A stretch of 64,000 nt of DNA from Rhizobium pisi (lineage in GTDB: Bacteria > Pseudomonadota > Alphaproteobacteria > Rhizobiales > Rhizobiaceae): NCBI RefSeq assembly GCF_003938655.1, contig NZ_RJJT01000009.1, positions 124,001 through 188,000 on the forward strand. Reading direction: 5' to 3'. Shown here in pieces: positions 1,208-64,000 of this stretch. The translations under genes were made by a program, and so were the position numbers. The first letter of the stretch is position 1; every line of letters starts with the position of its first letter. The notes under the pieces were generated by a model. The model worked only from the letters and a program-made list of their open reading frames with translations, did no database searches and was not told where the DNA came from.

Positions 1208-2011
1208 TTACGCGGCTTCCCGCGCAACCAGCTTGCGATAGAGATGCCAGGTCGCATGGCCGAGGATCGGAATGACGAGCGCAAGACCGGCAAAGACCGG
1301 GATCGTGCCGATGACGAGCAGTGCGGCCACGATCAGGCCCCAGAGCAGCACCGGCACCGGATTGATGAGCGTGGCGCGGATCGAGGTCACGACGGCGGAA
1401 ACCGCCCCGACATCGCGGTCGAGCAGCAACGGAAAGGTGATGACCGATATTGCCAGCACGACGAGTGCGAAAACGAAGCCGATGAGATTGCCCCAGATGA
1501 TCAGCTGCATGCCCTGGGGCGTGCCGAAGACCTGGCGGGTGAAATCGCCCATGGTGCGCGGAAACACTTCGCCGAGCAGGTTGCTGTAAAGCGTCTGCGC
1601 CGTTACCAGCCAGACGACGAAGAGGGCAAGAAGCATCAGCCCGACCGCCACGATCGCCGGCAGCGCCGGCGAATGGCGCACATCAAGCGCATGCGTCCAC
1701 GACATGTCGACGCCAGCCTCGCGACGGCGGCTGATCTCGTAAAGGCCGATCGCGGCGATCGGACCGATCAGCACGAAGCCCGCCATCAGCGGGAAAACCA
1801 TCGGCAGAAGGTTGGCGCCCGAGGTCCACAGCGTCAGGAAAACGCCGGCGATCGGGTACATCAGGCAGAGAAACACATAGTGGGATGGTTTCTCCATGAA
1901 ATCATCGAATCCGCGCTTCAGCGCATCGAAGACGTCGGCGATGCCGATGCGATTGACCACGGGCCGCGCGAAGCTTTCACCCGCACCCGTCATGACATGA
2001 AATGCCGCCAT
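1208..2011 (-). CDS. DUF2189 family integral membrane protein
   Basis: The product has 267 residues. The N-terminus MAAFHVMTGAG is followed by RPVVNRIGIADVFDALKRG, the entry motif of the DUF2189 family, and then about six hydrophobic helices. The protein is predicted in the inner membrane; its biochemical role is unknown. The start at 2011 is chosen because GAGGAGGAG lies about seven bases upstream on the minus strand. A reading from 2092 would add 27 poorly structured residues. It is divergent from the serine-hydrolase gene at 2188. DUF2189 proteins are common in alphaproteobacteria, but no partner gene is suggested here. Confidence 0.75.
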   Translation of the reverse strand: MAAFHVMTGAGESFARPVVNRIGIADVFDALKRGFDDFMEKPSHYVFLCLMYPIAGVFLTLWTSGANLLPMVFPLMAGFVLIGPIAAIGLYEISRRREAGVDMSWTHALDVRHSPALPAIVAVGLMLLALFVVWLVTAQTLYSNLLGEVFPRTMGDFTRQVFGTPQGMQLIIWGNLIGFVFALVVLAISVITFPLLLDRDVGAVSAVVTSIRATLINPVPVLLWGLIVAALLVIGTIPVFAGLALVIPILGHATWHLYRKLVAREAA

Positions 2012-2187
2012 GGCTTTCTCCTCCTCAGCCGAGACCTGATCGGCGGCGGAAAGCATCGGCGGGCAAGCCGACACGAAATCCGCAACCGGCACTGGAGCAA
2101 TATAGCAACTTTCAGCGCCCGTGTCGCCGTCTGCCTTGACCTCCCCCTCTTGACATCCGGGACAAGCTTTCTCACATCGGCGGCACT

Positions 2188-2742
2188 ATGAAAGCCTCAG
2201 ACGCAGATATCCTCATCATCCCCGGCTACACCAACTCAGGTCCCGGCCATTGGCAGACCCGCTGGGAGGCAAAGCTCAGCACGGCGCGGCGCGTCGAACA
2301 GGCCGAATGGACGAAGCCGGTCCGCGAGGACTGGATCGCCCGCATCGCCGAGGAGGTGAACGCCTCGACGCGGCCAGTCGTTCTCGTCGCCCATTCGCTG
2401 GGCGTGCCCTCGGTGATCCACGCCATCCCGCATTTCCGTAAGCCGGTGGCGGGCGCCTTTCTCGTCGCCCCGCCCGATGTCGCCAATCCCGAGATCCGCC
2501 CGAAGCACCTGATGACCTTCGGCCCCTACCCGCGCGAGCCGCTGCCCTTCCCTTCGATCACGGTGGCGAGCCGCAACGATCCGTTCGGCAGCTACGACCA
2601 TGCTGACGACATCGCCAGCAGCTGGGGCTCCTTCCTTGTCGATGCCGGCGAGTCCGGTCATATCAATACCGATTCCGGTCACGGGCCCTGGCCGGATGGC
2701 ACGATGGTCTTTGCCCAGTTCCTCAGTCGGCTCACCGCCTGA
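2188..2742 (+). CDS. RBBP9/YdeN-type small serine hydrolase
   Basis: The product has 184 residues, the normal size for the RBBP9/YdeN branch of alpha/beta hydrolases. It begins with the beta-strand and loop ILIIPGYTNSGPGHWQTRWE typical of the family. The nucleophile elbow VAHSLG places the catalytic Ser at residue 70. Asp131 in SRNDPFG and His158 in GESGHIN complete a plausible triad. No signal peptide is seen, so it should act in the cytoplasm. The substrate is unknown. It stands alone between the divergent DUF2189 gene and the GGDEF-EAL gene. Confidence 0.85.
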   Translation: MKASDADILIIPGYTNSGPGHWQTRWEAKLSTARRVEQAEWTKPVREDWIARIAEEVNASTRPVVLVAHSLGVPSVIHAIPHFRKPVAGAFLVAPPDVANPEIRPKHLMTFGPYPREPLPFPSITVASRNDPFGSYDHADDIASSWGSFLVDAGESGHINTDSGHGPWPDGTMVFAQFLSRLTA

Positions 2743-2838
2743 TTGAGGAAAAGCCACCTTCTCGTTAATTGAGCGATTGCTTTCTAAGTCTTTCTTAATG
2801 GAATGACCGCAGACTGCATCGAGATGCAATAAGCGAGA

Positions 2839-5109
2839 ATGCCCGTGAAGAAAGCCCATCCAGAGGCCGATGATCCGCATGGCGATGCCGCAGCGGCCGA
2901 CGGCTCCGATCTGGCCGAGCGGGAGGGCCGCTGGAACTATGCGCTCGTCGGCTCGGACCTCGGCGTGTGGGATCACAACTACCGCCTGGATCGGAAATAT
3001 TACTCCCCGACGTGGAAAACCATGCGCGGCATGGCGCCGGACGAGGAAGTTGCCGGCGATTACGATGCCTGGCTGCAGCTCGTCCATCCCGATGATCGCG
3101 ATTTCATCGCGCATGCCATCGATCGGCAGAACGCCGGCGATCCTGATTATCAGATCTTCGAATATCGCGAGCGCCACCGGGACGGCCACTGGATCTGGAT
3201 CGAATGCCGTGGCGCCTGCGTGGAATGGGACGAGGCAGGCGTGCCGACACGCGTCGTCGGCACGGATACCGATATCACCGCCCGCAAGCAGGCGGAGGAG
3301 ACGCTGTCGCGCCTGTCACGCCGGCTCGATCTGGCCCTGGAGATTTCCCGCATCGGCGTCTTCGAGGCCGACATCGAGGAGGATATGGTCGAGTGGGACG
3401 ACCGCTTGATCGCCATCTACGGGCTGAAGGGCGCCGCCCGCCGGATTGCCGGCGACGTCTGGGCAAAAAGCCTGCACCCCGACGATCGCGAGCGCGTCCT
3501 TGGCCTGGCCGACCGCAGCGTCGAAAGCGGCAGTGATTTCCAGCAGGAATACCGCATCATCCGCGGCGACGGCCTTGAACGCGTCATCCGCGCCCGCTCG
3601 GCCTTCTTCATCGACGGAAACGGTCACCGTAAGCTCATTGGCGCCAATTGGGATGTGACTGAGGAAGTCAGGCTTCGCGACGAGCTGCAGCGCGCCAAGG
3701 ATCTGGCGGAAGCCCGCAACCATGAACTCGAGGCCGCTAAGGAAAGCATCGAGCACCTGGCTCTGCACGATTACCTCACCGGCCTTCCGAACCGCCGCTA
3801 TCTCGACAAGATGCTGGACGACCGCTCGGCCGAATGCCGGGCCAAGGGCCTGGCGTTGGCGATCCTGCATATCGATCTTGACCGCTTCAAACAGATCAAC
3901 GACACGCTCGGCCATCGGGCCGGCGACGCCATGCTGAAGCATGCAGCGGGCGTGTTGAGAAATTCCGTCCGCGCCGCCGATTTCGTTGCCCGCATCGGCG
4001 GCGATGAATTCGTCATCCTTTGCGCCGTCGATGCCGCCTCGAAGAAGATCGCCAGCCTCGCCGAACGCGTCATCCGCGAATTGCGCAAACCCGTCAGATA
4101 TGAGGGGCACGACTGCCGTTTCGGCGCCAGCATCGGCATCGCTGTCGACAGCGGTCCGAAGCTCGACGCCAAGCAGATACTGCTCGACGCCGATATCGCG
4201 CTTTATCGGGCCAAGGGCCTCGGCCGCAATCGATTCGAATTCTTCTCGGCGTCCGACCGCCGCGACGTGGTTTCCGCCAAGCAGCTCGCCGACGAGATCT
4301 TGATCGGCCTCGAGCGCAATGAATTCGTGCCCTTCTATCAGCTGCAGTTCGATGCGCGCACACTGGATGTCGCAGGCGTCGAAACGCTTGCCCGCTGGCA
4401 GCATCCGGTACACGGGCTGCTAACGCCCGATAGATTCCTCGCTATCGCCGAGGATCTCGACGTCGTTTCGACCATCGATGCCCTGATCCTGGAGCGCGCG
4501 CTGGCCGACCGCAGCGCCTGGATCAAGGACGGGCTGTCCGTCCCGAAAATATCGGTCAACGTCTCCGCCAGGCGGATCGCCGATCCCGATCTCGGCAAGA
4601 AGCTTCGAGCCCTCAAGATCCCGCCGGGCAGCATTTCCTTCGAACTGCTGGAGTCGATCTCGCTCGACGATTGCGACGAGGCGGTGGCTGCAAACCTGAA
4701 AAAGCTGCGCAAGTTCGGCATCGACATCCAGATCGACGATTTCGGCACCGGCCACGCCTCGATCGTCAGCCTGCTGCGCCTGAGCCCGAAGACGTTGAAG
4801 ATCGACCGCGAGTTGATCCGTATGCTGCCGCAATCGGCCGAGCAGCGTAAGCTCGTCGGCTCGATCATCGATATCGGCCGTTCGCTTGATATCCTCGTCA
4901 TCGCCGAGGGTGTCGAGACGGCGGAGCATGTCCGTATTCTCGAAGAACTCGACTGCGACATGCTGCAGGGCTATGCGCTCGCCCGGCCGATGCCGGCCAT
5001 GCAGATCCCCTCCTTCATCCGCGCCGGAAGCTGGCGCCATAGGCAAACGGCCGCCCGCGCCCTGCAGACGCAGCTTCGCCGCGCGCTGCGAAGCAGAGCC
5101 GCCAAATAA
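2839..5109 (+). CDS. PAS-PAS-GGDEF-EAL c-di-GMP signalling protein
   Basis: The product has 756 residues and no membrane segment. Two PAS/PAC sensor units (about residues 30-150 and 165-280, each ending in a PAC-like [14 protein letters not shown] or [14 protein letters not shown] stretch) lead through a short helix into a GGDEF domain. GGDEF is intact at 387-391, and an RxxD inhibitory site sits five residues before it, so diguanylate cyclase activity is plausible. The C-terminal phosphodiesterase-type domain carries ETL (515-517) in place of EAL but keeps [10 protein letters not shown] and AEGVET. Whether it makes or degrades c-di-GMP, or both, cannot be told from sequence. It is a single-gene unit. 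Confidence 0.9.
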
Positions 5110-5360
5110 AAGCCTGCATAAACGGCCCGCCATTTCGCCTTCATTTCACCGTAAAGGAAAAGGCGCTAGACTCATCTGGCGAATTCATTCGATTCTCTTG
5201 GCGGTATTCCGTAAAATCCGGAATCCGGGGCCACGAAATCTGGAAACCGGGGAAGGAGCGACAGGCGGATTGTGAAACACTCTCTTTTCCTTTAAGGGGA
5301 CGCCACGAGATCGATCCACTCGCGCTATCCCAAGAGCGCCAACAACAGAGAATAACCACG

Positions 5361-6125
5361 ATGAACCGTCGCCGCCGTATCTACGAGGGCAAGGCAAAGA
5401 TTCTGTATGAGGGCCCGGAGCCGGGCACTTTGATCCAGTTCTTCAAGGACGATGCCACCGCCTTCAACAAGAAGAAACACGAAGTTATCGACGGCAAGGG
5501 CGTCCTCAACAACCGCATTTCCGAATATATCTTCAGCCATCTGAACAAGATCGGCATCCCCACTCACTTCATCCGCCGGCTGAACATGCGTGAGCAGCTG
5601 ATCAAGGAAGTGGAGATGATCCCGCTGGAGATCGTCGTGCGCAATGTCGCCGCCGGTTCTCTCGCCAAACGCCTCGGTATCGAGGAAGGCGTCGTCCTGC
5701 CGCGCTCGATCATCGAATTTTATTACAAGTCCGACGCACTCGACGACCCGATGGTCTCGGAAGAGCACATCACCGCCTTCGGCTGGGCCAATCCCGCCGA
5801 GCTCGACGACATCATGGCGCTCGCCATCCGCGTCAACGACTTCATGACCGGCCTTTTCCTCGGCGTCGGCATCCAGCTTGTCGATTTCAAGATCGAATGC
5901 GGCCGCCTGTTCGAAGGCGATCTGATGCGCATCATCCTCGCTGACGAAATCTCGCCGGACAGCTGCCGGCTCTGGGATATCGAAACCCGCGAGAAGATGG
6001 ACAAGGATCGCTTCCGTCGCGATCTCGGCGGGCTGCTGGAAGCCTATTCCGAAGTCGCGCGCCGTCTCGGCATCATCAATGAAAACGAGCCCGTGCGCGG
6101 CACCGGCCCGGTTCTCGTCAAGTAA
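5361..6125 (+). CDS. purC: SAICAR synthetase (phosphoribosylaminoimidazole-succinocarboxamide synthase)
   Basis: The product has 254 residues, the usual PurC length. It joins CAIR and aspartate with ATP to make SAICAR in purine synthesis. The N-terminal [13 protein letters not shown] strand-loop and the conserved [37 protein letters not shown] and [12 protein letters not shown] motifs are all present. It opens the purC-purS-kptA-purQ cluster; purS starts 15 bases after its stop. The 250 bases before it (5110-5360) hold no gene and presumably the operon promoter, but I could not pick out a convincing -35/-10 pair. Confidence 0.97.
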
Positions 6126-6140
6126 GGCAGGAAAGACAAA

Positions 6141-6383
6141 GTGATCAAGGCTCGTGTCACCGTCACGCTGAAAAACGGCGTTCTCGATCCGCAGGGCAAG
6201 GCCATCGAAGGCGCGCTCGGCGCCCTCGGCTTCTCGGGCGTCGGCCATGTAAGACAAGGCAAGGTCTTCGACCTCGAGCTTGAGGGCGCCGACAAGGCCA
6301 AGGCCGAGGCCGACCTCAAGGCCATGTGCGAAAAGCTGCTCGCCAACACGGTGATCGAGAACTTCGCAATCGCAATCGACTGA
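6141..6383 (+). CDS. purS: Phosphoribosylformylglycinamidine synthase subunit PurS
   Basis: The product has 80 residues, the normal PurS length, and starts with GTG. PurS bridges PurL and PurQ in the three-part FGAM synthase found in bacteria with small PurL. The opening KARVTVTLKNGVLDPQGKAI and the central VGHVRQGKVFDLEL strand are diagnostic. GGAAAG precedes the start. The gene follows purC closely, and its stop is 44 bases before kptA, which separates it from its functional partner purQ. Confidence 0.95.
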   Translation: MIKARVTVTLKNGVLDPQGKAIEGALGALGFSGVGHVRQGKVFDLELEGADKAKAEADLKAMCEKLLANTVIENFAIAID

Positions 6384-6427
6384 TGATCACGGCCCGGCTG
6401 TCCGGCGGACTTTGAAGATTTGGCGTC

Positions 6428-6982
6428 ATGATGAAAACAAAGCTGGAGACGGAAGTCTCGAAATATATGAGCTATGTTTTGCGTCATGCGCCAGAAGCCG
6501 CGAGTCTGACGCTGGATGGCGAGGGCTGGGTATCGTTCGATGAATTCGAAAAAGCGCTGACGTATAGATATGACGTCTCCCGCGCCGATATTATCGAGAT
6601 CATCGCAAACAATCCAAAAAAGCGCTTCACGCTCGCCGATAACAGAATTCGCGCAAATCAAGGTCACAGCGTCGAGGTCGACCTCGCCTTGAAAGAGGTC
6701 GAGCCGCCAGCCGTTCTTTTTCATGGCACGTCCCTGGCGAGCTGGTCCTCGATCGAGCGCGAGGGCCTAAAGAAGATGCAGCGGCATCATGTTCATCTGT
6801 CGGCGGATGTCGAAACGGCGAAAATCGTCGCAATGCGCCGCAAGGGTGAATATGTCATCCTGCGGGTGGATGCGGCCCGCATGTTTTCAGAGGGCCATTC
6901 TTTCTTTGTCTCCGACAATGGAGTATGGCTCACCGAAAGCGTTCCAGTTCAATATCTTTCGCGAAACGCAGGGACCCCATGA
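6428..6982 (+). CDS. kptA: RNA 2'-phosphotransferase (Tpt1/KptA family) inside the pur operon
   Basis: The product has 184 residues, full length for the family. KptA/Tpt1 transfers an internal RNA 2'-phosphate to NAD+. The N-terminal module holds [12 protein letters not shown] with the catalytic Arg19-His20. RANQGHS includes Arg76, LFHGTS gives His99, and the NAD-binding end [14 protein letters not shown] is kept, so the enzyme looks active. G+C is about 49% over 6421-6660 by hand count, against roughly 62% in a purQ line, which points to transfer. The TGA stop overlaps the purQ ATG (ATGA). The RNA substrate in bacteria is unknown; nothing nearby encodes an RNA ligase. Confidence 0.93.
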
Positions 6983-7650
6983 AATCAGCCGTCGTTCAAC
7001 TTCCGGGCCTTAACCGCGACCGCGACATGATCGCAGCCCTGACCAAGATCTCGGGCAAAGCGCCGGTCACGATCTGGCAGACGGAAACCGATATCCCCGA
7101 TGTCGACCTGATCGTCATTCCCGGCGGCTTCTCCTACGGCGACTACCTGCGTTGCGGCGCGATCGCCGCCCGCATGCCGGTCATGCAGGCGATCATCGAC
7201 AAGGCTGCAAAGGGCGTGAAGGTGCTCGGCGTCTGCAACGGCTTCCAGATCCTCGTCGAGGCCGGCCTGCTGCCCGGTGCCTTGATGCGCAATGCCTCGC
7301 TGAAATTCGTCTGCCGCGAGATCAAGCTCGAAGTCGTCAACGCCGATACTGATTTCACCCGCGCCTATGCGCAGGGTCAGGTCATCCGCAGCCCGGTCGC
7401 CCATCACGACGGCAATTATTTCGCCGACGAAGCAACGCTGGCGAAGATCGAAGGCAATGGCCAGGTGGTGTTCCGTTATGCCGAGGGCACTAATCCGAAT
7501 GGCTCGATCAAAGATATTGCCGGCGTGATGAACGAAAAGGGCAATGTGCTCGGCATGATGCCGCATCCCGAAAACCTGATCGAAGCCGCCCATGGCGGTT
7601 CGGACGGCCGCGGTCTCTTCGCCTCCGCGCTCGACGTCATCGCCGCCTGA
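6979..7650 (+). CDS. purQ: Phosphoribosylformylglycinamidine synthase, glutaminase subunit PurQ
   Basis: The product has 223 residues, the PurQ norm. It is a class I glutamine amidotransferase that supplies ammonia to PurL. Cys86 in GVCNGFQ is the nucleophile and His196/Glu198 in MMPHPEN complete the triad. The start at 6979 is set by the conserved [15 protein letters not shown]-terminus. The frame is open further upstream (ATG at 6925), but that sequence belongs to kptA in another frame. The ATG shares bases with the kptA stop, so purQ translation is probably coupled to kptA. Confidence 0.96.
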
Positions 7651-7729
7651 GCCTCGCGCCCTGATGCATGTCGCCGGCACGCGTGCCGTGCGTAAGACAT
7701 GCAAGGCCTTCATCCCTGGAGCAAGACCA

Positions 7730-16052: not shown

Positions 16053-16246
16053 GGAAAATCTCGATAAGGAGGAAAATGGCTAGGCCTGCCGTGCCGCGCG
16101 CGGCTGCGCGGGACAAGGCACAGTCAAACGGACGCTAGCGGCGAAAAACCCAATCGAGACGGATTCGTGCCGGAGTTCGGCGAAGGTTCAGGTCAATCAT
16201 GTCTGTTCCTTTCCAGGCATCCCCGCCCGGTTGATTGGATCGTGAT

Positions 16247-16498
16247 TGACGGCAGGTCTCCTGGCTTGCGGATATGCGCCGATCATCTGCCTTCCCGCGA
16301 AAACCTTCGCAGTGGCATGGCCAGAGGCCCTGGGGGATGAGCAGCGGTGCTCACCTCAGGAGGATCGGCAAACCGATCATCCTGGGATGATCGGCAATCC
16401 GCTTACAGTTGCGGGGGCAGCCACGGTCTTGATCCCTATTGGGTCGTCCTCACCGTGTTCCCTATTAATCCCTTTGGAGTCATCCTCGGGGAACCGTC
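16247..16498 (-). ncRNA. Cobalamin (AdoCbl) riboswitch
   Basis: Read on the minus strand the element has all conserved parts in order: a GACGG P1 strand (16494-16498), GGGAACACGGTG, GGCTGCCCCCGCAACTGTA, GCCACTGCGAAGG, GGGAAGGC and the B12 box AGCCAGGAGACCTGCC (16251-16266), followed by the CCGTC that closes P1 (16247-16251). It lies 195 bases before the start of the substrate-binding protein. Riboswitches of this class switch off expression when adenosylcobalamin is plentiful, so the importer should be made under B12 shortage. The expression platform is probably between 16052 and 16247 but was not resolved. Confidence 0.95.
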
Positions 16499-16588
16499 GC
16501 GCCCAGTTACGACGCCTCACCGCATTGCGTCAAGAACAAGCTGATGCATCGGGCCTTGTGCGGAATGCCTTCCGCGAAAAGGCCGCTC

Positions 16589-19228: not shown

Positions 19229-19564
19229 ATGAGCGGCATTCACGAATTCATCGACAACGAAATCAAGAGCAACGACGTCGTCCTCTTCATGAAGGGCACG
19301 CCGCAGTTTCCGCAGTGCGGTTTCTCCGGGCAGGTCGTGCAGATTCTCGATTACATCGGCGTCGACTACAAGAGCGTTAACGTGCTCGCCGATTCGGAAA
19401 TCCGCCAGGGCATCAAGGATTATTCCAACTGGCCGACGATCCCGCAGCTTTACATAAAAGGCGAATTCGTCGGCGGCTGCGACATCGTCCGGGAAATGTT
19501 CCAGGCCGGTGAGCTGCAGCAGCATCTCCAGGAAAATGGCATCGCCGTACGCGGCGCCGCCTGA
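19229..19564 (+). CDS. grxD: CGFS monothiol glutaredoxin Grx4
   Basis: The product has 111 residues, the length of single-domain CGFS glutaredoxins. The active site PQCGFS has Cys30. The glutathione-binding features [28 protein letters not shown] and the trailing helix are all present. Such proteins bind a [2Fe-2S] cluster as a dimer or with BolA and act in iron-sulfur delivery rather than as dithiol reductants. A bolA gene lies at 12971. The start at 19229 follows AAAGGAT; the in-frame ATG at 19211 would add six unconserved residues. Confidence 0.95.
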
Positions 19565-19659
19565 CCGGTCTCCGGGCGTCCGCTCGGTTTCCAAATCTGT
19601 TTCTTGAGTCCGGGGCGCTGCGGTAAGCAGCGCCTTGGCCTGTTTATGGGAATTTCATT

Positions 19660-20907
19660 GTGACAGATTCATCGCAAGCCGTGTCCGCGGGCCGCCTGCC
19701 CATGGGCAAGCGTGAATTCATCGCGCTTGCCGCCTTCCTGATGGCCATCAATTCGCTGGCGATCGACATCATGCTTCCGGCCCTGCAGCAGATCGGTGCA
19801 AGCCTCGGCGTCGAAAGCGAGAATCACCGCCAGTTCGTCGTTTCCACCTACCTGCTCGGCTTCGGCTGCGCCCAGCTTTTCTATGGACCGCTTTCCGATC
19901 GCTTCGGCCGCCGTACACCGTTGTTGATCGGCCTTGTCATCTATATCGCTTCCGCCATCGGAATCGTTTTCGTTCCATCATTCGCTGGCCTGCTGGTGCT
20001 GCGCTTCATCCAGGGCATCGGTTCGGCCGCCACCCGCGTCATCACCATTTCCATCGTCCGCGATATCTATGGCGGCCGGCAGATGGCGGAAGTCATGTCG
20101 CTCATCATGATGGTCTTCATGATTGTACCGGTGATTGCGCCCGGCACCGGCCAGATCGTCATGTTCTTCGGCAACTGGCACCTGATCTTCCTCTTCATCG
20201 CCACCATGGCGACCGCTATCGCCGTCTGGGCTTACCTGCGCCTGCCGGAAACCCTGCATCCCGCCAATGTCAGGCCCTTCACCGCCCGCTCGATTTTCGG
20301 CGCCTTCAAGCTCGTGCTGACCAATCGCATGGCGCTCTGCTACACCATCGCCAGCACCTTCATCTTCGGCGCGCTGTTTGGCTTCATCAATTCCGCGCAG
20401 CAGGTCTATGTCGGCATCTATGGCCTCGGGATCTATTTCCCCTTTGCCTTTGCCGCCGTTGCGATCTTCATGTCGCTGTCGTCCTTCTTCAACTCGCGCT
20501 TCGTCGGCAAGCTCGGCATGCGCCGCCTATCGCACGGTTCGCTCCTCGGCTTCATCGCCATCAACACCATCTGGCTGATCGTGCAGATGGTGAGCACGGA
20601 GCCGATGCCCTTTGCCCTGTTCATTTCATTCTTCGGCCTTGCCATGTTCCAGTTCGGCTGGATCGGCTCGAACTTCAACTCGCTCGCCATGGAGCCACTC
20701 GGCCACGTCGCCGGCACCGCCTCCTCCGTGCTCGGTTTCATGAGCACGGTCGGCGGCGCCATCATCGGGGCCGGCATCGGCCAGGCCTTCGACGGCACCG
20801 CGCTGCCGATGGTGGCCGGTTATTTTGCCGTGTCGATCGTCGGGCTGATCTTCGTGCTGATCGCCGAGAAGGGCCGGCTCTTCCAACAGCATAACCCTGC
20901 CGTCTGA
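19660..20907 (+). CDS. Bcr/CflA family MFS drug-efflux transporter (copy 1)
   Basis: The product has 415 residues and twelve predicted helices, starting with GTG. It carries the DHA1 12-helix signatures: DIMLPALQQIGASLGV in helix 1, GFGCAQLFYGPLSDRFGRRTPL as motif A, and RFIQGIGSAATRVITISIVRD as motif B. The family exports bicyclomycin, chloramphenicol-like or sulfonamide drugs; the substrate here is not known. A close paralogue follows after 35 bases, so the pair arose by tandem duplication and is probably one transcript. Confidence 0.88.
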   Translation: MTDSSQAVSAGRLPMGKREFIALAAFLMAINSLAIDIMLPALQQIGASLGVESENHRQFVVSTYLLGFGCAQLFYGPLSDRFGRRTPLLIGLVIYIASAIGIVFVPSFAGLLVLRFIQGIGSAATRVITISIVRDIYGGRQMAEVMSLIMMVFMIVPVIAPGTGQIVMFFGNWHLIFLFIATMATAIAVWAYLRLPETLHPANVRPFTARSIFGAFKLVLTNRMALCYTIASTFIFGALFGFINSAQQVYVGIYGLGIYFPFAFAAVAIFMSLSSFFNSRFVGKLGMRRLSHGSLLGFIAINTIWLIVQMVSTEPMPFALFISFFGLAMFQFGWIGSNFNSLAMEPLGHVAGTASSVLGFMSTVGGAIIGAGIGQAFDGTALPMVAGYFAVSIVGLIFVLIAEKGRLFQQHNPAV

Positions 20908-55713: not shown

Positions 55714-55814
55714 CAGACTTATCCTATTGATGACGAAAAAACCGTCATCCGATATTGCGCTTGCGGTGGCTATGCCCCAAGCTCCCGTCGATTTCAACAC
55801 GGGTTGCGTTCAGA

Positions 55815-56441
55815 ATGCCGCTTGCAGTGCGTTATATGGTCCTTCCTATGGTCTTTTCCATTGGTCTTTCCCTTTGCGGGCCGGCCGCTGCTGAAGTGAT
55901 CGCATCGAAAAGCTATTCCTATTTCGACATTCGCGGCAAAACCGCGGATGAGCTGGACCGCGAACTCAGCCGGCGCGGCCCGACGGCGAGCGGCTCCTCG
56001 GCACGCCATCCCGGCGCCACCAAGATCCGTTTCGGCGGCGAGGCCACCTATATCCAGGACGACGGCCGCTGCCGCATCGGCAACGTCAAGGTTACCGTCC
56101 ACACCCAGATCATCCTGCCGCGCTGGAGCAACCGCATGGGCGCGGGCAAGGAGCTGTCGATGATCTGGGATGCCCTGTCGAGCGATATCAAGCGTCACGA
56201 GGAGCGCCATGCCGAGATCGCCCGCAATCAGGCCCGCTCCATGGAGCGCGCCATCCGCGCCCTGCCGCCGCAGCGCAGCTGCGAGACCATGCAGGAGCTC
56301 GTTTCCAACGAATCAGCTCGCGGTATAGAGGAGCACGACCAGTTGCAGGCGCGCTTCGACCGGGTCGAAGCGGTCAACTTCCAGAAGCGTATGCTGAGAT
56401 TGCTGAACAATCGAATCAGAGGTCGAACCGGCGAAAAATAA
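55815..56441 (+). CDS. DUF922 protein, predicted secreted zinc protease
   Basis: The product has 208 residues. A signal peptide (MVLPMVFSIGLSLCGPAAAE, cut near AAA) is followed by YSYFDIRGKTADELDRELSRRGPT, the DUF922 entry motif. HEERH (HExxH) in IKRHEERHAEIARNQ is a metal site. Cys in DGRCRIGN and RSCETMQ may form a disulfide. Proteolysis is inferred, not shown. It is divergent from folP. An ATG at 55836 is another start candidate. Confidence 0.8.
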   Translation: MPLAVRYMVLPMVFSIGLSLCGPAAAEVIASKSYSYFDIRGKTADELDRELSRRGPTASGSSARHPGATKIRFGGEATYIQDDGRCRIGNVKVTVHTQIILPRWSNRMGAGKELSMIWDALSSDIKRHEERHAEIARNQARSMERAIRALPPQRSCETMQELVSNESARGIEEHDQLQARFDRVEAVNFQKRMLRLLNNRIRGRTGEK

Positions 56442-56580
56442 GGCTTTCTCAAGCAGGCTGCGAGCGAAAAAGCTTAGCTGCACAACGAAACCTGTGCGAA
56501 ACTTGCGTCCTCCCCAGCGATTCAATGGTCATTTTTCATTCTGGCAGACTCAACCGGAACGCGTTAATATGAACACATTC

Positions 56581-56717
56581 GAAAGTTCAGGTACGGCACC
56601 TGCACTTTCATCGCTGGGTTCTCCTGGCGCGTTCCGAAGCCGCGGATGTTCCTCCCTCATCCGTAGGTAATGCGCCCGCCTCGCCTCGCTCGCACCAGCG
56701 CGCGAGGCGTCTTTTTT
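56581..56717 (+). ncRNA. Small RNA candidate, alpha-r8/MmgR-like
   Basis: Three hairpins follow one another. The first (56581-56609) has GAAAGT/ACTTTC and CAGGT/ACCTG stems. The second (56643-56663) has CGGATG/CATCCG and shows the single-stranded loop TTCCTCCCT. The third (56682-56709) has CGCCTCGC/GCGAGGCG and ends in TCTTTTTT (the terminator). A loop that could pair with Shine-Dalgarno sequences plus a strong terminator is the plan of the alpha-r8 family (MmgR), which limits polyhydroxybutyrate granules in Sinorhizobium. The RNA may start only at the second hairpin (about 77 bases). No reading frame lies here. Confidence 0.7.
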
Positions 56718-56765
56718 GTACTGTAGGGATATTGAGCAGCGACTGCGGTTGATGCGCGGCGCGCG

Positions 56766-57086
56766 TCAGGCCTGTCGTTCCGGCACGTGCACCACAAGCC
56801 CGTCATAGACGGCCTTCATCCGGATCTGACAGGACAGCCGCGACGTCGGGCGCACGTCGAAGGCGAAGTCGAGCATGTCCTCTTCCATCGCCTCCGGCTG
56901 GCCGACCTTCTCAGTCCACTCCTCGTCGACATAGACGTGGCAGGTCGCGCAGGCGCAGGCGCCGCCGCATTCGGCCTCGATGCCGGGCACCGAATTGCGC
57001 ACTGCGTTTTCCATCACGGTGGAGCCTTGGTCGACGTCGAGGTCGAAGCGCGTGCCGTCGAAGGCGACGATGGTAAGTTTGGGCAT
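56766..57086 (-). CDS. Adrenodoxin-type 2Fe-2S ferredoxin
   Basis: The product has 106 residues from [10 protein letters not shown]. The cluster Cys are Cys40, Cys46 and Cys49 in [13 protein letters not shown] and the last in SRLSCQIRM. Cys44 is extra. It should carry single electrons in the cytoplasm, e.g. to a cytochrome P450 or an Fe-S assembly step. The start at 57086 is the conserved one. Confidence 0.92.
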
Positions 57087-57286
57087 CAGGACGATTCCGG
57101 TCTTCAAATGGATGGGCGGATTTTCTTCCGATAATTCGACGCGTCAGTCAACATCGGCGAAATTGGCCATAGCCTCGCAGATCGGGCCTTTGCCCGCCGT
57201 CTTCAAAGCGTCATATCGGACGTCGCAAAAAGACCCGTGGTTTCGCAATGAAACAACGGGCCTCATGTTTTGTGCCCGGAAGCGGC

Positions 57287-58120: not shown

Positions 58121-61100
58121 ATGGCGAACAACAAATATAATGAGTCGATCGAGGACAAGGCGTTCAAGGCATTGGACGAAGCGCTCCAGATCGACTTCGG
58201 CAAGGAAAACGTGCCGTCTCGCCGCGGCAGCGCGCCTGAGGCCCCGGAGGCTAATGTGTCTGACCCATCGAATGCGCGTAATCAGCAGGCCCAGGAAGAA
58301 GCGCAACGCCGTAACCGCCGCAGTGCTGCGGGCGAGCAGGCTTCCAGGGCTCCGGCCTTCGCGCCGGCCAACGATGCCAGCCGCAACACGCCCGCCTCTA
58401 TCCTGAAATCCTTCGACGGCGCCTCCAGCCGCTCGGCGATGCGCACCGCCACCCTGTTCTCCATACTTTGGGTCATGGCCGGCCTCGGCCTGATGTCGCT
58501 GCTTTATTCACCGCAGATCTGGCAGATCCGTTCGATCGCCGATCTCGTCGCCCTGCCCGGCGTCATCGCCGGCCTGGTCGGCATCGTCATTCCCGTGATG
58601 ATGTTCTACGCCTTCGCCATCATGATCTCCCGCGCCCAGGACATGCGCAACGCCGCCCGTTCCATGGCGGAGGTGGCACTTCGTCTGGCGGAGCCGGAAA
58701 CCATCGCCTCCGAGCGCATCATGACGGTCGGCCAGGCCGTGCGTCGCGAAGTCTCTGCCATGAACGAAGGCATCGAGCGCACTATCGCGCGCGCCTCCGA
58801 GCTGGAAACGCTTGTCCATTCCGAGGTCAATGCCCTCGAGCGCTCCTATGCCGACAACGAGCTGCGTGTCCGCGGCCTCGTCCACGAACTCGGCTCCGAG
58901 CGCGAGGCGATCGTCAATCATGCCGACCGCATCCGCACCTCGATCGGCAGCGTCCACGACCAGTTGAAGGAAGAACTGTCGCTTGCGACCGAGGAGATCG
59001 CGGTGCGGCTCGCCACATCGGGCGAAGCCTTCGCATCGCTGATCGATACGCGCGCGGCGACGATCCTGGAAAAATCCGACAGCGCCCTGCAGTCCATGGG
59101 CAGCCTACTTGCCGCCAAGACCGACAGCCTGCTCCAGACACTCAACGCATCCGGTTTTGCGCTTGCCACCGAATTTGACAACCGCCTCGAAGCGCTCTCG
59201 GTCAATCTCAACGAACATGGCGAAAGGCTGCTCAGCCAGTTCGAGACACGCGCCTCGACGATGGACAGCAGCACCGAGAAGCTGAACGCGGCGCTGAACG
59301 AGCGCACGCATCAGCTCAACGAAATCCTGATCGCCCGCACCCGCGAGATCAACGAGAGCCTGACATCGGGCGAACGCACTATCGGCGGCACGCTTGACGA
59401 CGTGCTGTCAAAGCTGAATAGCGCGCTCGACGAAAAGGGCGCAAGCTTCCGCCAGAGCCTGCAGACCACCGCCGACGATGCCGTGATGGATCTCGACGTG
59501 CGCTCCGGCTTCTTCGAGGAGCGGCTGCAGACGACCGTCGCCCAGCTGTCGACCGCCTTCGACGAAAGGGTCGCCGAATTCACCAGCGCCTTCGACAAGC
59601 GCACCGGCTCGCTCGACACCAAGCTGATGGAAAGCCTCGCCCGCATCAACGAGACGCTGACCGGCGGCTCGGATTCGATCGACGGCATCCTGAGTTCCGG
59701 CATTGACCGTCTCGGCTCGTCGATGACAGACCAGTCGTTGGCGCTTGCGACCGCACTCGCCACCGGCCACGAAATGCTGGAAAGCACGGTCGGCGCACGG
59801 GCGGAGGAAATTACCACCGCCCTCACCAGCCGCACCGGCGAACTGACCTCTGCGCTGCAGAACGCCACATCGGACATCGCGCTGGCGCTTGCATCGGGCA
59901 GCTCCGAGCTGCAGAACAATCTTCAGGCCCGCTCGGCCGAGTTCCGCGACACGCTGCGCACCACCACGACCGATCTGACGAGCGCCGTTGCCGCCGGCAC
60001 CGAGCAGGTTACGTCGGCATTCGGCGGCCGCGCGGAGGAACTGAGCGGCGTGCTTGCTGCGCGCGCAGCCGAAATCACCGAGGCGCTCGGCACGGCGCAC
60101 AGCCGCATCGACAGCGTGATGGCCGAGCGCGGCGGCGCGCTCGTCGATGCGCTGGCCACCCATCACGGTCGCTTCGAGGAAGCGTTGGCAACCCGCGCCG
60201 ACGCCATCATCAACACGGTGTCGGGCACCCATGACCGTCTTGCCGAGACGCTCGACGAAAAGGCGATGGCACTTGCCATTTCGCTCAACGAAAGCCAGGC
60301 CCGTATCGAGGATACGCTGGAAACCCGTTCGGCAGCCCTTCTGAACGCTGTCTCCGGCACCCATGACCGCCTCTCCGAGACGCTGGACGAGAAGGCGATG
60401 GCGCTCGCCATCTCCTTGAACGAAAATCAGAGCCGCATCGAGGATACGCTCGAAACCCGCTCTGCCGCCTTCCTCAACGCCGTCTCGGGCACCCATGACC
60501 GCCTGTCGGAAACGCTGGACAGCAAGGCGGCTGCGCTTACGACCTCGCTCGACGAGCGCCATGCCCGCATCGAGGACGCACTCGGAACACGCGCCGAGGC
60601 GCTGCTGAACACCGTCTCCGGCACGCGCGACCGCCTTGCCGAAACGCTCGACGAAAAGGCAATGGCGATCGCCATTTCCTTGAGCGAGAGCCAGGCGCGT
60701 ATCGAGAATACCCTGGAAACCCGTTCGGCCGCCCTGCTGAACGCTGTCTCCGGTACCCATGACCGCCTCTCCGAGACGCTGGACGAGAAGGCGATGGCGC
60801 TTGCCATCTCGCTCAATGAGAGCCAGTCGCAGATCGAAGGCACGCTGGAAGCCCGCTCCGAAGCCTTCCTCAAGGCCGTCTCCGGCACGCATGAGCGTCT
60901 CTCGGAAACCTTGGACACGAAGGCATCGGCGCTCGCCGCCTCGCTGAACGAGGGCCAGAGCCGCCTGCAGGACACGCTGGAGACCCGCTCGGAGTCCTTC
61001 CTCAACGCGGTCTCGGCCACCCATGACCGCCTGTCCGAAACGCTCGACGATCGGTCGATGGCGCTTGCCATCTCGCTGAACGAGAGCCAGAGCCGTCTCG

Positions 61101-64000
61101 AGGAGACGCTGACGAGCGGTGCCGATGCGATCACCAATGCCGTCTCCGGCACGCATGAACGCCTGAACGGTGTGCTCAATCAGAAGGCGAACGCGCTCGC
61201 CGCGTCGCTGACCGAGGGCCAGGCTCGCCTGGAGGAAGCACTGGGACACCGTACTGCCGCGATCGTCGGCGCCGTTGCGGCAAGCCACGACCGGCTCACC
61301 GATGCGCTCGACGAAAAGACCATGGCGCTCGCCATTTCGCTCGACGACAACCAGAGCCGCTTCGACAGCGCGCTCGAAGCCCGCAGCAACTCCATGATGG
61401 AAGCTGTCGCCGGCGCCGAAGCACGCGTCGCTGGCGCCTTCGCCGACAAGACCGACGCTATCCGCGACGCCTATACCGACAACCAGCAGCGGCTCGAAAA
61501 CGCGCTCTCGGAGCATAGCGCGGCTCTCGCCGGCGCTCTCGATGCCGGCAGCGCCCGCTTCGAGGATATCGTCGGCGGCTTGACCGGCCGCATCGAAGGC
61601 CGACTGACCGATGCCCATGCGCGTCTCGGAGGCCTTGCCGACCAGGCCGCGACGCGCATCGAGGGTGGCCTTGCCTCCGCTCATGAACGCATCCGCACGA
61701 CGCTCGAGGAGCGCACCAACGCCATCGACCTGTCGTTGAACCAGGCCCATGCTCTGATCAGCGATACGCTCTCCGAGCAGGCGACCAGCATCGGCACCTC
61801 GGTAGCGACCAGCGTCAGCATGCTCGAGATGTCGCTGGAGGAACGCGAGGCTGCGATCCGCCAGGCCATCGATGCCGGCGCGCAAACGTTGGAAGACCGC
61901 ATGCATGCCGGCGCCGGCCAGATCGCCGGCCGCTTCCAGGAGGCGGCAAACGCGATCTCGACCTCCGCCCAGAGCTTCTCGGCCCATCTCGACCAATCTG
62001 TGGAAAGCCTGACCGGCCGTTTCGAAGAAACCGGATCGCGGGTGGAATCCGGCCTTGCGGCGATCGAGAACCGCATCCGCGACGGCGTCGGCGGCGTTGC
62101 CGAAAAGGTCGAAGCGGTGAGTGGTCAGCTCTCCGGCGTGCTTTCCGACGGCATTTCCCGCCTCGGCGCGCTGAGCGACGACACCACACGGCGTATTTCG
62201 GCCACGCTCGAAGGCAGTGCCGCGACCCTCACCCAGGCGATCGACAGCCGCACCGCCAATCTGGCCGAAACGCTGGACAGCCGCTCCACCACGCTGACGG
62301 GCGCCATCGAGGGCCGCACGGCAAGCCTCGGCGAAACCCTGGATCGCGGCAATGCACGCATCGAGGAACGCCTCTCCACCATGGACCGCGCCCTGACCAT
62401 CGGCCTCGATGCGGTCAACCGCACCATCGAAGGCAAGGCCGCCGGTCTCGCCTCGACGCTGCGCAGCGCAGTTGCCGAAGCCGCCCAGGGAATGGAAGGC
62501 GAAGCGACGAGAACCACCGAACTGCTTGGCAAAACTGGCCAGCAATTCGCCGAGGACCTCAACGCCAAAAGCGACGAATTCACGCGCACCATGGATGAGC
62601 GCTCCTCGCAGATCGTCACCCGCGTGTCGGAAGCGCAAAACCGACTGGCAAGCCAGGCCGCTGCCGTCGCGCAGACCTTCTCGGAAGCCGGCAACGCCAT
62701 CGTCAACAAGGTCGCCGAAGCCGAAACCATCGTCGGCACCCAGGTCAACGCCATCTCCAAGGTGCTGTCGGATGCCGGCCAGTCGCTGGAAACCCGCGGC
62801 AACGCCATCCGCTCGACGCTCTCGGGCGCCGGCAGCGAGATTTCCGCCACCATGGCCGATGTCGACCGGGCGCTCGAAGCCCGCAGCAGCGCCATCCGCT
62901 CCAATCTCGAAGAACGAGCCCGCGAGATCGATACGACGCTCTCCGACATCGACCGGGCGCTCGAAGCGCGCGGCAACTCGATCCGCACGGTGCTCGATGA
63001 GCGCACCCGCGACCTCAACTCGATGCTCGCTGGCCGCTCGGTCGAACTGACGCGCATCCTCGACGAGACCGCCCGCCCGATCCTCGATCGCTACACGGAT
63101 GCCGGCGAGCAGGCCGCCGCCCGCATCACCGCGGCCGCCAACCTCAGCGCCGACCGTCTGCGTGCCGAAAACGAAGCGCTTGCCAGCGCCGTTGCCGCCC
63201 GCACCGAAAATGTTGCCAATGCCGTCAGCGCCATCGAGAACAGCCTGGTCGCCAACGTCAACGGCCTCGTCGAGCGCATGTCGGAAAGCAGTGCGGCGAT
63301 GGCGATGATGATGAACCGTGCCGCGGAGCAACTGACGAGCGTCGATGGCCGTCTCGGCGACACCACCACGCGCTTTGCCGACTCTGCCACGAAGGCCGCC
63401 GAAATGGTCTCGGCCTCTACCAGGCTTCTCGAAGGCAAGGTCGATCGCCTCTCCGACATTTCGGGCCAGACGCTCGCACAGGTCGGGGGCATCATCGGCC
63501 GCTTCGACGAACACTCCAAGGTCCTGACGCAGGCCTCGCAGCTTCTCGGCGCCGCCCAGTCCAACCTCGCCTCGACGCTCGAAGAGCGCGAAAGCGCGCT
63601 GCAGACGCTCTCTGTCGGCCTCGTTACGCGCTCCGCAGAGATCGAAAAGACCATGCTCGGCCTCGGCAGCATGATCGAGACAGTGTTCGAGCGGGCAGAG
63701 CAGCGCTCCAACCAGGTCACCGGCAATCTGCGCCAGGGCGTACAATCCTCCTTCACCGATATTGGCCGCATTCTCACCGAAACCGAGAAGCGCGCCCAGG
63801 AGGCGGCCGAGACGATGCGCGAGGCGATCACTCGGGCAGGCGACGAGGCCAATACGACGATCGACGGAACCTTCGCCAATGTCGAACGCCGCTCCGGCGA
63901 TCTCTCCAACCGTATTCGCGGCGGTCTTACTGCCTCGCTGTCGGAAGTCGAGCGTATGCTCGGCGAAGCCGGCCGTGCCTCGGACGGCGCCGCCCAGCAC
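58121..64000 (+). CDS. GPR/RgsE-like giant coiled-coil polar-growth protein (3' end outside window)
   Basis: The frame is open for 1960 residues and runs past the window edge. An acidic, disordered N-terminus of about 105 residues is followed by two membrane helices (about 111-130 and 145-170). The rest is Ala/Ser/Glu/Arg/Thr-rich helix with an 11-residue rhythm, of the sort often annotated as kinesin-like or apolipoprotein A1/A4/E-like. Residues 700-1095 hold nine exact 44-residue repeats. The Agrobacterium Growth Pole Ring protein and Sinorhizobium RgsE have this plan and are needed for polar growth. I infer orthology from size, layout and family memory. GAGG precedes the ATG. Confidence 0.85.
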   Translation, partial: MANNKYNESIEDKAFKALDEALQIDFGKENVPSRRGSAPEAPEANVSDPSNARNQQAQEEAQRRNRRSAAGEQASRAPAFAPANDASRNTPASILKSFDGASSRSAMRTATLFSILWVMAGLGLMSLLYSPQIWQIRSIADLVALPGVIAGLVGIVIPVMMFYAFAIMISRAQDMRNAARSMAEVALRLAEPETIASERIMTVGQAVRREVSAMNEGIERTIARASELETLVHSEVNALERSYADNELRVRGLVHELGSEREAIVNHADRIRTSIGSVHDQLKEELSLATEEIAVRLATSGEAFASLIDTRAATILEKSDSALQSMGSLLAAKTDSLLQTLNASGFALATEFDNRLEALSVNLNEHGERLLSQFETRASTMDSSTEKLNAALNERTHQLNEILIARTREINESLTSGERTIGGTLDDVLSKLNSALDEKGASFRQSLQTTADDAVMDLDVRSGFFEERLQTTVAQLSTAFDERVAEFTSAFDKRTGSLDTKLMESLARINETLTGGSDSIDGILSSGIDRLGSSMTDQSLALATALATGHEMLESTVGARAEEITTALTSRTGELTSALQNATSDIALALASGSSELQNNLQARSAEFRDTLRTTTTDLTSAVAAGTEQVTSAFGGRAEELSGVLAARAAEITEALGTAHSRIDSVMAERGGALVDALATHHGRFEEALATRADAIINTVSGTHDRLAETLDEKAMALAISLNESQARIEDTLETRSAALLNAVSGTHDRLSETLDEKAMALAISLNENQSRIEDTLETRSAAFLNAVSGTHDRLSETLDSKAAALTTSLDERHARIEDALGTRAEALLNTVSGTRDRLAETLDEKAMAIAISLSESQARIENTLETRSAALLNAVSGTHDRLSETLDEKAMALAISLNESQSQIEGTLEARSEAFLKAVSGTHERLSETLDTKASALAASLNEGQSRLQDTLETRSESFLNAVSATHDRLSETLDDRSMALAISLNESQSRLEETLTSGADAITNAVSGTHERLNGVLNQKANALAASLTEGQARLEEALGHRTAAIVGAVAASHDRLTDALDEKTMALAISLDDNQSRFDSALEARSNSMMEAVAGAEARVAGAFADKTDAIRDAYTDNQQRLENALSEHSAALAGALDAGSARFEDIVGGLTGRIEGRLTDAHARLGGLADQAATRIEGGLASAHERIRTTLEERTNAIDLSLNQAHALISDTLSEQATSIGTSVATSVSMLEMSLEEREAAIRQAIDAGAQTLEDRMHAGAGQIAGRFQEAANAISTSAQSFSAHLDQSVESLTGRFEETGSRVESGLAAIENRIRDGVGGVAEKVEAVSGQLSGVLSDGISRLGALSDDTTRRISATLEGSAATLTQAIDSRTANLAETLDSRSTTLTGAIEGRTASLGETLDRGNARIEERLSTMDRALTIGLDAVNRTIEGKAAGLASTLRSAVAEAAQGMEGEATRTTELLGKTGQQFAEDLNAKSDEFTRTMDERSSQIVTRVSEAQNRLASQAAAVAQTFSEAGNAIVNKVAEAETIVGTQVNAISKVLSDAGQSLETRGNAIRSTLSGAGSEISATMADVDRALEARSSAIRSNLEERAREIDTTLSDIDRALEARGNSIRTVLDERTRDLNSMLAGRSVELTRILDETARPILDRYTDAGEQAAARITAAANLSADRLRAENEALASAVAARTENVANAVSAIENSLVANVNGLVERMSESSAAMAMMMNRAAEQLTSVDGRLGDTTTRFADSATKAAEMVSASTRLLEGKVDRLSDISGQTLAQVGGIIGRFDEHSKVLTQASQLLGAAQSNLASTLEERESALQTLSVGLVTRSAEIEKTMLGLGSMIETVFERAEQRSNQVTGNLRQGVQSSFTDIGRILTETEKRAQEAAETMREAITRAGDEANTTIDGTFANVERRSGDLSNRIRGGLTASLSEVERMLGEAGRASDGAAQH
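60218..61405 (+). repeat. Nine tandem 132-bp coding repeats in the GPR/RgsE-like gene
   Basis: Unit starts lie at 60218, 60350, 60482, 60614, 60746, 60878, 61010, 61142 and 61274, all exactly 132 bases apart, and the phase continues to 61406. Each encodes 44 residues close to VSGTHDRLSETLDEKAMA followed by LAISLNESQSRIEDTLETRS and ALLNA. 44 is four 11-residue turns, so the helix register is kept. More worn units lie before (from 60086) and after. Confidence 0.95.

Follow-up and report, generated by a model that had tools for sequence, protein, structure and literature searches.

A small RNA gene, predicted to give a transcript of about 144 nt, lies at positions 56574-56717 (+) of the window, by which we mean the whole 64,000-nucleotide stretch of Rhizobium pisi DNA that was analysed. 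Its upstream neighbour (55755-56441, +) encodes a DUF922 protein (PF06037, E 2.8e-42, scanned from 55809), and its downstream, convergent neighbour (56766-57107, -) encodes a 2Fe-2S ferredoxin (PF00111, Fer2, E 2.1e-12). Farther along, two overlapping frames run on opposite strands, one of 1960 aa at 58121-64000 (+) that is open at the window end and one of 1530 aa at 59408-64000 (-) whose translation is highly repetitive in appearance. A scan of the window with all Rfam models gave two matches over threshold, Atu_C7 at this locus and a cobalamin riboswitch (RF00174, 94.2 bits) at 16234-16513 (-). The Atu_C7 (RF02501) match is full length (56574-56713, model positions 1-157 of 157; 54.3 bits, E 1.7e-9) and exceeds the curated cut-off of 45 bits; at E 0.001 or better, this locus is the single RF02501 place in the whole genome. 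Moreover, the gene lies between DUF922 and ferredoxin genes, as does the copy in the C58-like genome (L193). The element is a member of the Atu_C7 family, which is already known from Agrobacterium; no functional study of C7 or Atu_C7 was found in the literature searched. New here are a second conserved anti-Shine-Dalgarno site, covariation in support of the core stems, evidence for a clade-specific upstream hairpin and a candidate regulon. Several other Rfam models overlapped the locus below their own cut-offs and were set aside (anti-hemB, 19.5 bits; sX13, 19.1; ClpQY_promoter, 13.6; ar14, 12.1), and of the five Rfam matches that 56400-56800 gave at E 10 or better, none was AbcR/alpha-r15 (RF02345).

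The predicted fold of 56575-56720 has an energy of -61 kcal/mol (z -5.3), and 0 of 200 dinucleotide shuffles were equally stable. Its minimum-energy form recovers exactly the upstream hairpin at 56581-56609 of the original prediction. That prediction had also described a 6-bp hairpin (56643-56663) exposing an anti-Shine-Dalgarno loop and followed by a terminator, and the fold confirms both. In particular, six Watson-Crick pairs (56643-56648/56658-56663) and an additional G-U pair (56642/56664) form an inner hairpin (56642-56664, +) around the 9-nt loop UUCCUCCCU at 56649-56657, all nine bases of which are unpaired with probability 1.00. The intrinsic terminator (56682-56717, +) has its stem at 56682-56709 and a U6 tail at 56712-56717, which is likely to serve as the binding site for Hfq; it is the one terminator-like site in the gap between the DUF922 and ferredoxin genes, where 0.4 were expected from shuffles. 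Two elements had gone unmentioned. An 8-bp outer stem (56626-56633/56669-56676, within 56626-56676) carries the inner hairpin, and a conserved, CU-rich UUCUCC (56619-56624, within GUUCUCCUGG) precedes it as a second anti-Shine-Dalgarno site; hereafter, UUCUCC is called site 1 and the loop site 2. The unpaired probability of UUCUCC is at least 0.80 at four of its six bases and 0.29 and 0.25 at the last two.

A putative promoter read from the sequence (56542-56570, +) consists of TGGCAG, a 17-nt spacer and TAATAT (56565-56570). Of 16 aligned close relatives, 15 share TAATAT as the -10 hexamer and one has TAGTAT instead. A sigma-70 consensus scan between the flanking genes passed no promoter, and for this reason the putative -35 element may be weak or activator-dependent. 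The 5' end of the RNA most likely lies near 56574, the start of the Rfam model, because in the C58-like genome the model start (1345809) falls 4 nt from a reported RNA end (1345805).

In genome G423, which we take to be Agrobacterium C58, the core model R1 matches C1:1345650-1345759 on the minus strand, and the Rfam Atu_C7 model scores 197 bits there over 157 positions. Table 4 of Lee et al. (PMC3738593) gives C1_1345805R as an intergenic RNA of 155 nt running from 1345805 to 1345651. Northern bands of about 200 and 140 nt are reported in the same source, as are RPKM values without and with exonuclease of 471 and 454 in rich medium at log phase, 1602 and 1593 in rich medium at stationary phase, 3667 and 7684 in minimal medium, and 1634 and 4123 upon virulence induction. 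A second study places C7 on the minus strand between atu1350 and atu1351 and reports, for minimal medium, a 20-fold enrichment of it on Hfq and a reduced level in an hfq mutant; in complex medium, its level in the mutant was comparable, with no visible Hfq effect (PMC4201532). From family name, strand and coordinates, we infer that C7 and C1_1345805R are the same RNA. The original suggestion of an intergenic small RNA is thus supported by an orthologue that is transcribed and bound to Hfq in C58, and the Atu_C7 Rfam family is now tied to a mapped, Hfq-bound Agrobacterium RNA. The window RNA resembles it in its full-length covariance match, its neighbours, its two anti-Shine-Dalgarno sites and its terminator. 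It differs in its pre-core leader, which has its own sequence and hairpin, and on the side of the loop, which reads GUUCC in the window and GUUUCC, one base longer, in C58.

The original prediction went further and assigned the RNA to the alpha-r8/MmgR family, citing a nearly identical exposed sequence. On that sequence it was right: alpha-r8 exposes UUUCCUCCCU (PMC12559287) and the window RNA GUUCCUCCCU, alike in 9 of 10 bases, with a terminator downstream. The assignment itself failed. Covariance search of 56400-56800 with RF00519 (Rfam name suhB, description mmgR) gave no match up to E 10, and the genome's own RF00519 mmgR, at 59.3 bits, is on another contig. At E 0.001 or better, RF00519 matches three places in the whole genome, all of them other than 56574-56713. 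Two are a tandem AbcR pair (L003, G000:C33, about 19560-19860) that scores higher with ar15 (127 and 120 bits); the third (L002) is the mmgR gene, which provides a positive control for the search. This gene is flanked by genes for N-formylglutamate amidohydrolase (FGase, PF05013) and inositol monophosphatase, and the former is described as the usual alpha-r8 neighbour (PMC12559287), whereas 56574-56717 is flanked by the DUF922 and ferredoxin genes. The placement of the core is also different: in alpha-r8, a weak hairpin is followed by the core as single-stranded RNA (same source), and in the window an 8-bp stem encloses a 7-bp hairpin that has the core as its loop. The alpha-r8 transcript measures about 77 nt; the length predicted here is about 144 nt. 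The window carries GUUCCUCCCU in place of the alpha-r8 10-mer; since the full 10-mer is present in 33 of 67 Rfam-chosen Atu_C7 loci, UUUCCUCCCU alone does not separate the two families. The core model R1 does match the genome's own mmgR weakly (17.5 bits, E 0.003), a score that can be explained by the shared motif and terminator. Membership in the MmgR family is thus refuted by the alpha-r8 covariance test, which the original prediction had itself named, and it is extremely improbable that 56581-56717 is the Rhizobium alpha-r8/MmgR RNA tuning polyhydroxybutyrate storage. Functional overlap with MmgR is possible, and the likeness of Atu_C7 to alpha-r8 may reflect either convergence or remote descent.

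Atu_C7 is found in all 120 genomes of the genus that were sampled, over the curated cut-off in 118, and as a single match in 119. A possible second copy in the same genus (G252:C34:32155-32296) is weak, at 31 bits, and lies under the cut-off. The RNA is also present in 9 of 9 genomes of another genus and, by the core model R1, in 39 of 39 genomes of the genus of C58. Of 97 loci tested (96 distinct places, including the best 30 of 120 and the best 30 of 39 genus loci), 94 have both a DUF922 and a ferredoxin gene beside the RNA, and the remaining three have DUF922 only; in the genus of C58, both neighbours occur at 30 of 30 loci read, including the C58-like copy L193. The core motif stands beside the ferredoxin gene in Rhizobium laguerreae, Sinorhizobium meliloti 4H41, Ensifer adhaerens and Neorhizobium petrolearium, with Rfam Atu_C7 scores of 64.6 bits in S. 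meliloti and 55 bits in R. laguerreae; around the ferredoxin genes of 21 Mesorhizobium records, R1 gave no match. That search took in 48 loci, of which R1 matched ten, one of them the genome's own mmgR (17.5 bits).

The filters applied when many genomes were searched were strict and lose weak members. Across the taxonomic family, the Rfam model matched 29 of 151 genomes, 24 of them over the cut-off, and R1 matched 83 of 297, the weakest (about 25-30 bits) being doubtful. In a sample of the order, R1 matched 28 of 397 genomes; above 80 bits there were nine, all in the host's own taxonomic family. Ten weaker R1 matches were inspected (seven of the eight best places outside the own family and three within it). 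Four overlap Rfam suhB/mmgR and others lie near ar14 or CcsR1, all of them sub-cut-off; two are weak Atu_C7 matches (32.6 and 20.6 bits). All ten score below the Atu_C7 cut-off and are therefore not counted as Atu_C7. In genomes of another family, f6 (L403-L406), sub-threshold matches to ar14, suhB/mmgR and CcsR1 stand side by side within 2 kb.

The core structure was evaluated on an alignment (A1) of 51 motif-chosen cores from which near-duplicates had been removed. Changes on both sides were found in 11 of 23 pairs, and covarying cells numbered 73, compared with 21 in shuffles and 2-11 in controls with slid partners. One of five covariation measures, the count of further pair types, did no better than its shuffles (28 against 26), 68 of 500 of which equalled it. 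The outer stem is paired in 98.8% of cells, with two-sided changes in 5 of its 8 pairs; the inner stem covaries and is paired in 88.6% of cells over its five inner pairs; the terminator stem is paired in 97.3%. RNAalifold unaided predicted the outer stem and the terminator and not the inner stem, which was added by hand. Because the motif columns of A1 are conserved partly by construction, conservation was recounted on 67 Rfam-chosen loci. These are the places that the Rfam model gave in this genome, in the family sample, in the genus with nine genomes and in the 120-genome genus sample, the last represented by its best 30 of 120. In these, the loop carries CUCCC in 67, CCUCCC in 66 and the whole of UUCCUCCCU in 37. 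Site 1, as UUCUCC[C/U]GG, is present in 57 of the 67; the ten loci without it are nine of one genus and one of the genus of C58. In genus g84 (L005, L113-L120), the CCUCCC loop is kept and UUCUCC[C/U]GG is missing in 9 of 9 loci read, and the genus thereby offers a natural test of the role of the UUCUCC site.

The upstream hairpin behaves differently from the core. Among 14 distinct close relatives, it is paired in 83.8% of cells and covaries modestly, with four pairs changed on both sides, a number reached by 11 of 500 shuffles. The 99 distinct leaders of the whole family have a mean folding z of -0.35, with 24 below -1 and 9 below -2; the hairpin is therefore not a family feature.

Candidate targets were sought through the complement of the loop. 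UUCCUCCCU is complementary to AGGGAGGAA, and the pattern AGGGAGGAA-N3-12-ATG gave 24 rows (22 sites) in the genome and none with the reversed control pattern, from which it follows only that the loop complement is a genuine ribosome-site sequence. When frames of at least 70 aa were kept, 20 of the 22 sites remained (two were dropped). Six of these 20 frames encode uptake components, all of ABC uptake and all at the E 1e-8 level (OpuAC, NMT1, two Peripla_BP_4, Peripla_BP_6 and one permease). Other frames resemble sugar or polyol enzymes or regulators, namely UxaC, two GFO/IDH, a xylose-isomerase-like protein, RbsD/FucU and LacI. The control ribosome site AAGGAGAA gave 90 rows (87 loci) and 55 kept frames, of which two were uptake components at E 1e-8. 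The enrichment, 6/20 against 2/55, has a one-sided Fisher p of 0.004 for a category chosen post hoc and against a control set richer in doubtful genes (the 70-aa limit removed 32 of its 87 loci and 2 of the 22 for AGGGAGGAA); a value of p 0.0099 against a control of 43, where real genes were estimated rather than counted, is not relied on. Since the loop complement is an ordinary strong Shine-Dalgarno sequence, the enrichment could also reflect how uptake genes are translated. Three further genomes yielded 38 sites and 32 frames, 11 with uptake families among the first 25 of 34 families listed, a count that has no control and that assumes each family match to be a different protein.

Some candidates recur. 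For one Peripla_BP_4 gene, three of the four genomes searched (this one, C58 and G047) carry the site, and its proteins are 81-89% identical; for the second, this genome and G047 do (93% identical). The permease site is shared with G106, at 35% identity and with uncertain orthology. Predicted duplex energies of Atu_C7 on the three sites of this genome (the two Peripla_BP_4 genes and the permease) are -22.8, -16.2 and -22.2 kcal/mol, and those of the genome's own MmgR core on the same sites range from -19.5 to -22.0 kcal/mol; because the energies are similar, these sites cannot distinguish the two RNAs. The site-1 complement CCAGGAGAA occurs before ATG in 45 rows from four genomes, two of which are the antisense of the small RNA gene; 20 of the remaining 43 have frames of at least 70 aa, and there is no homologous pair among the 20. 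Three of the genomes have near-identical stretches among the 23 dropped rows (L302, L321, L342), which may lie within a gene. Ten of the 20 frames were scanned with Pfam, and three of these ten encode solute-binding proteins (in this genome SBP_bac_8 and SBP_bac_3, in the C58-like one SBP_bac_5), on which no weight is put because the count has no control. The start of a gene for a DUF2270 membrane protein is preceded in this genome by the loop complement (L271, on the contig of the window, G000:C72 near 273400) and in G047 by the site-1 complement (L331), as if this putative target could be reached by either site.

We consider it rather probable that the element is a stand-alone, trans-acting Atu_C7 RNA that, assisted by Hfq, represses uptake and catabolic mRNAs by base pairing. 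With Hfq, the RNA would pair through its UUCCUCCCU loop to purine-rich ribosome sites of mRNAs, with UUCUCC perhaps as a second pairing segment; covering of the ribosome site would then lower the translation chiefly of mRNAs for uptake and for sugar and polyol catabolism. A model for such activity is SisA, the Caulobacter alpha-r8 RNA, which according to PMC12559287 pairs through UUUCCUCCCU with the 5' region of a TonB-receptor mRNA and thereby represses it; the pairing is backed by compensatory mutations, and the set of SisA targets is rich in transporters. By analogy, Atu_C7, although no member of alpha-r8, probably acts in the manner of those RNAs.

Other modes of action were weighed against this repressor. 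PmaR, bench-tested in Agrobacterium, is reported to regulate most of its nine targets positively, and an RNA of that kind could activate or stabilise mRNAs without masking ribosome sites. It is, however, a different RNA, the former C10; what the Atu_C7 loop complements is the ribosome site itself, which such pairing normally blocks, and SisA, with nearly the same core, represses (PMC12559287), so that activation by Atu_C7 is unlikely. Quite unlikely, too, is a general decoy of Hfq or the ribosome, or a sponge of another small RNA, acting on no defined mRNAs. The anti-Shine-Dalgarno motif is indeed short and generic, and in Caulobacter the purine-rich complementary loop of CrfA can sponge such a motif (PMC12559287), but in Atu_C7 the flanks, the stems and the sequence next to the motif are conserved, and 119 of 120 genus genomes have one match.

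The element follows the DUF922 stop codon by about 130 nt on the same strand, and no consensus promoter was found; both observations would fit a rival reading in which it is merely the DUF922 gene's 3' untranslated region or its terminator and regulates nothing. The C58 RNA in rich medium is likewise not enriched by exonuclease (RPKM from 471 to 454 and from 1602 to 1593; PMC3738593). Yet the same data show a distinct RNA that is enriched in minimal medium (3667 to 7684) and upon virulence induction (1634 to 4123), the orthologue is Hfq-associated (PMC4201532), and the conserved loop is unneeded for a mere terminator; we therefore regard this explanation as very improbable.

The Atu_C7 RNA has several counterparts. 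With alpha-r8 MmgR/SisA-D (RF00519), it shares a near-identical exposed core, an intrinsic terminator and the use of Hfq (for Atu_C7, in C58 only), in contrast to which stand the lack of a model match, the longer predicted RNA, the core in a nested hairpin loop and the other neighbours. Like AbcR1/AbcR2 (alpha-r15, RF02345), it has two anti-Shine-Dalgarno sites and ABC uptake genes as targets, predicted for Atu_C7 and known for AbcR from the literature; AbcR is nevertheless a separate family with other motif sequences and its own tandem pair elsewhere in the genome. EcpR1, PmaR and the RNAs with CCUCCUCCC loops are also alphaproteobacterial and known or thought to reach their targets through C-rich or GC-rich loops. 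Neither of the first two was retained as an identity for the element: the EcpR1 gene lies downstream of divK-pleD, and PmaR is the former C10. SmelA075/A099 differ in that all of their three or four hairpins carry CCUCCUCCC. An anti-Shine-Dalgarno loop is thus common to several alphaproteobacterial RNA families and is no evidence of family, and the analysis corrects a plausible misassignment to MmgR and supplies a short list of candidate targets.

Since the cores of Atu_C7 and MmgR are nearly identical, the two RNAs could compete for targets or share them. A tentative extension, possible though doubtful, is that Atu_C7 acts as the functional sibling of MmgR, a separately controlled second input to a shared regulon of uptake and carbon catabolism in which UUCUCC might widen or sharpen targeting. 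If such a shared regulon is real, the control of carbon uptake in rhizobia would gain a player beyond AbcR and MmgR, and studies of MmgR deletions should take Atu_C7 into consideration.
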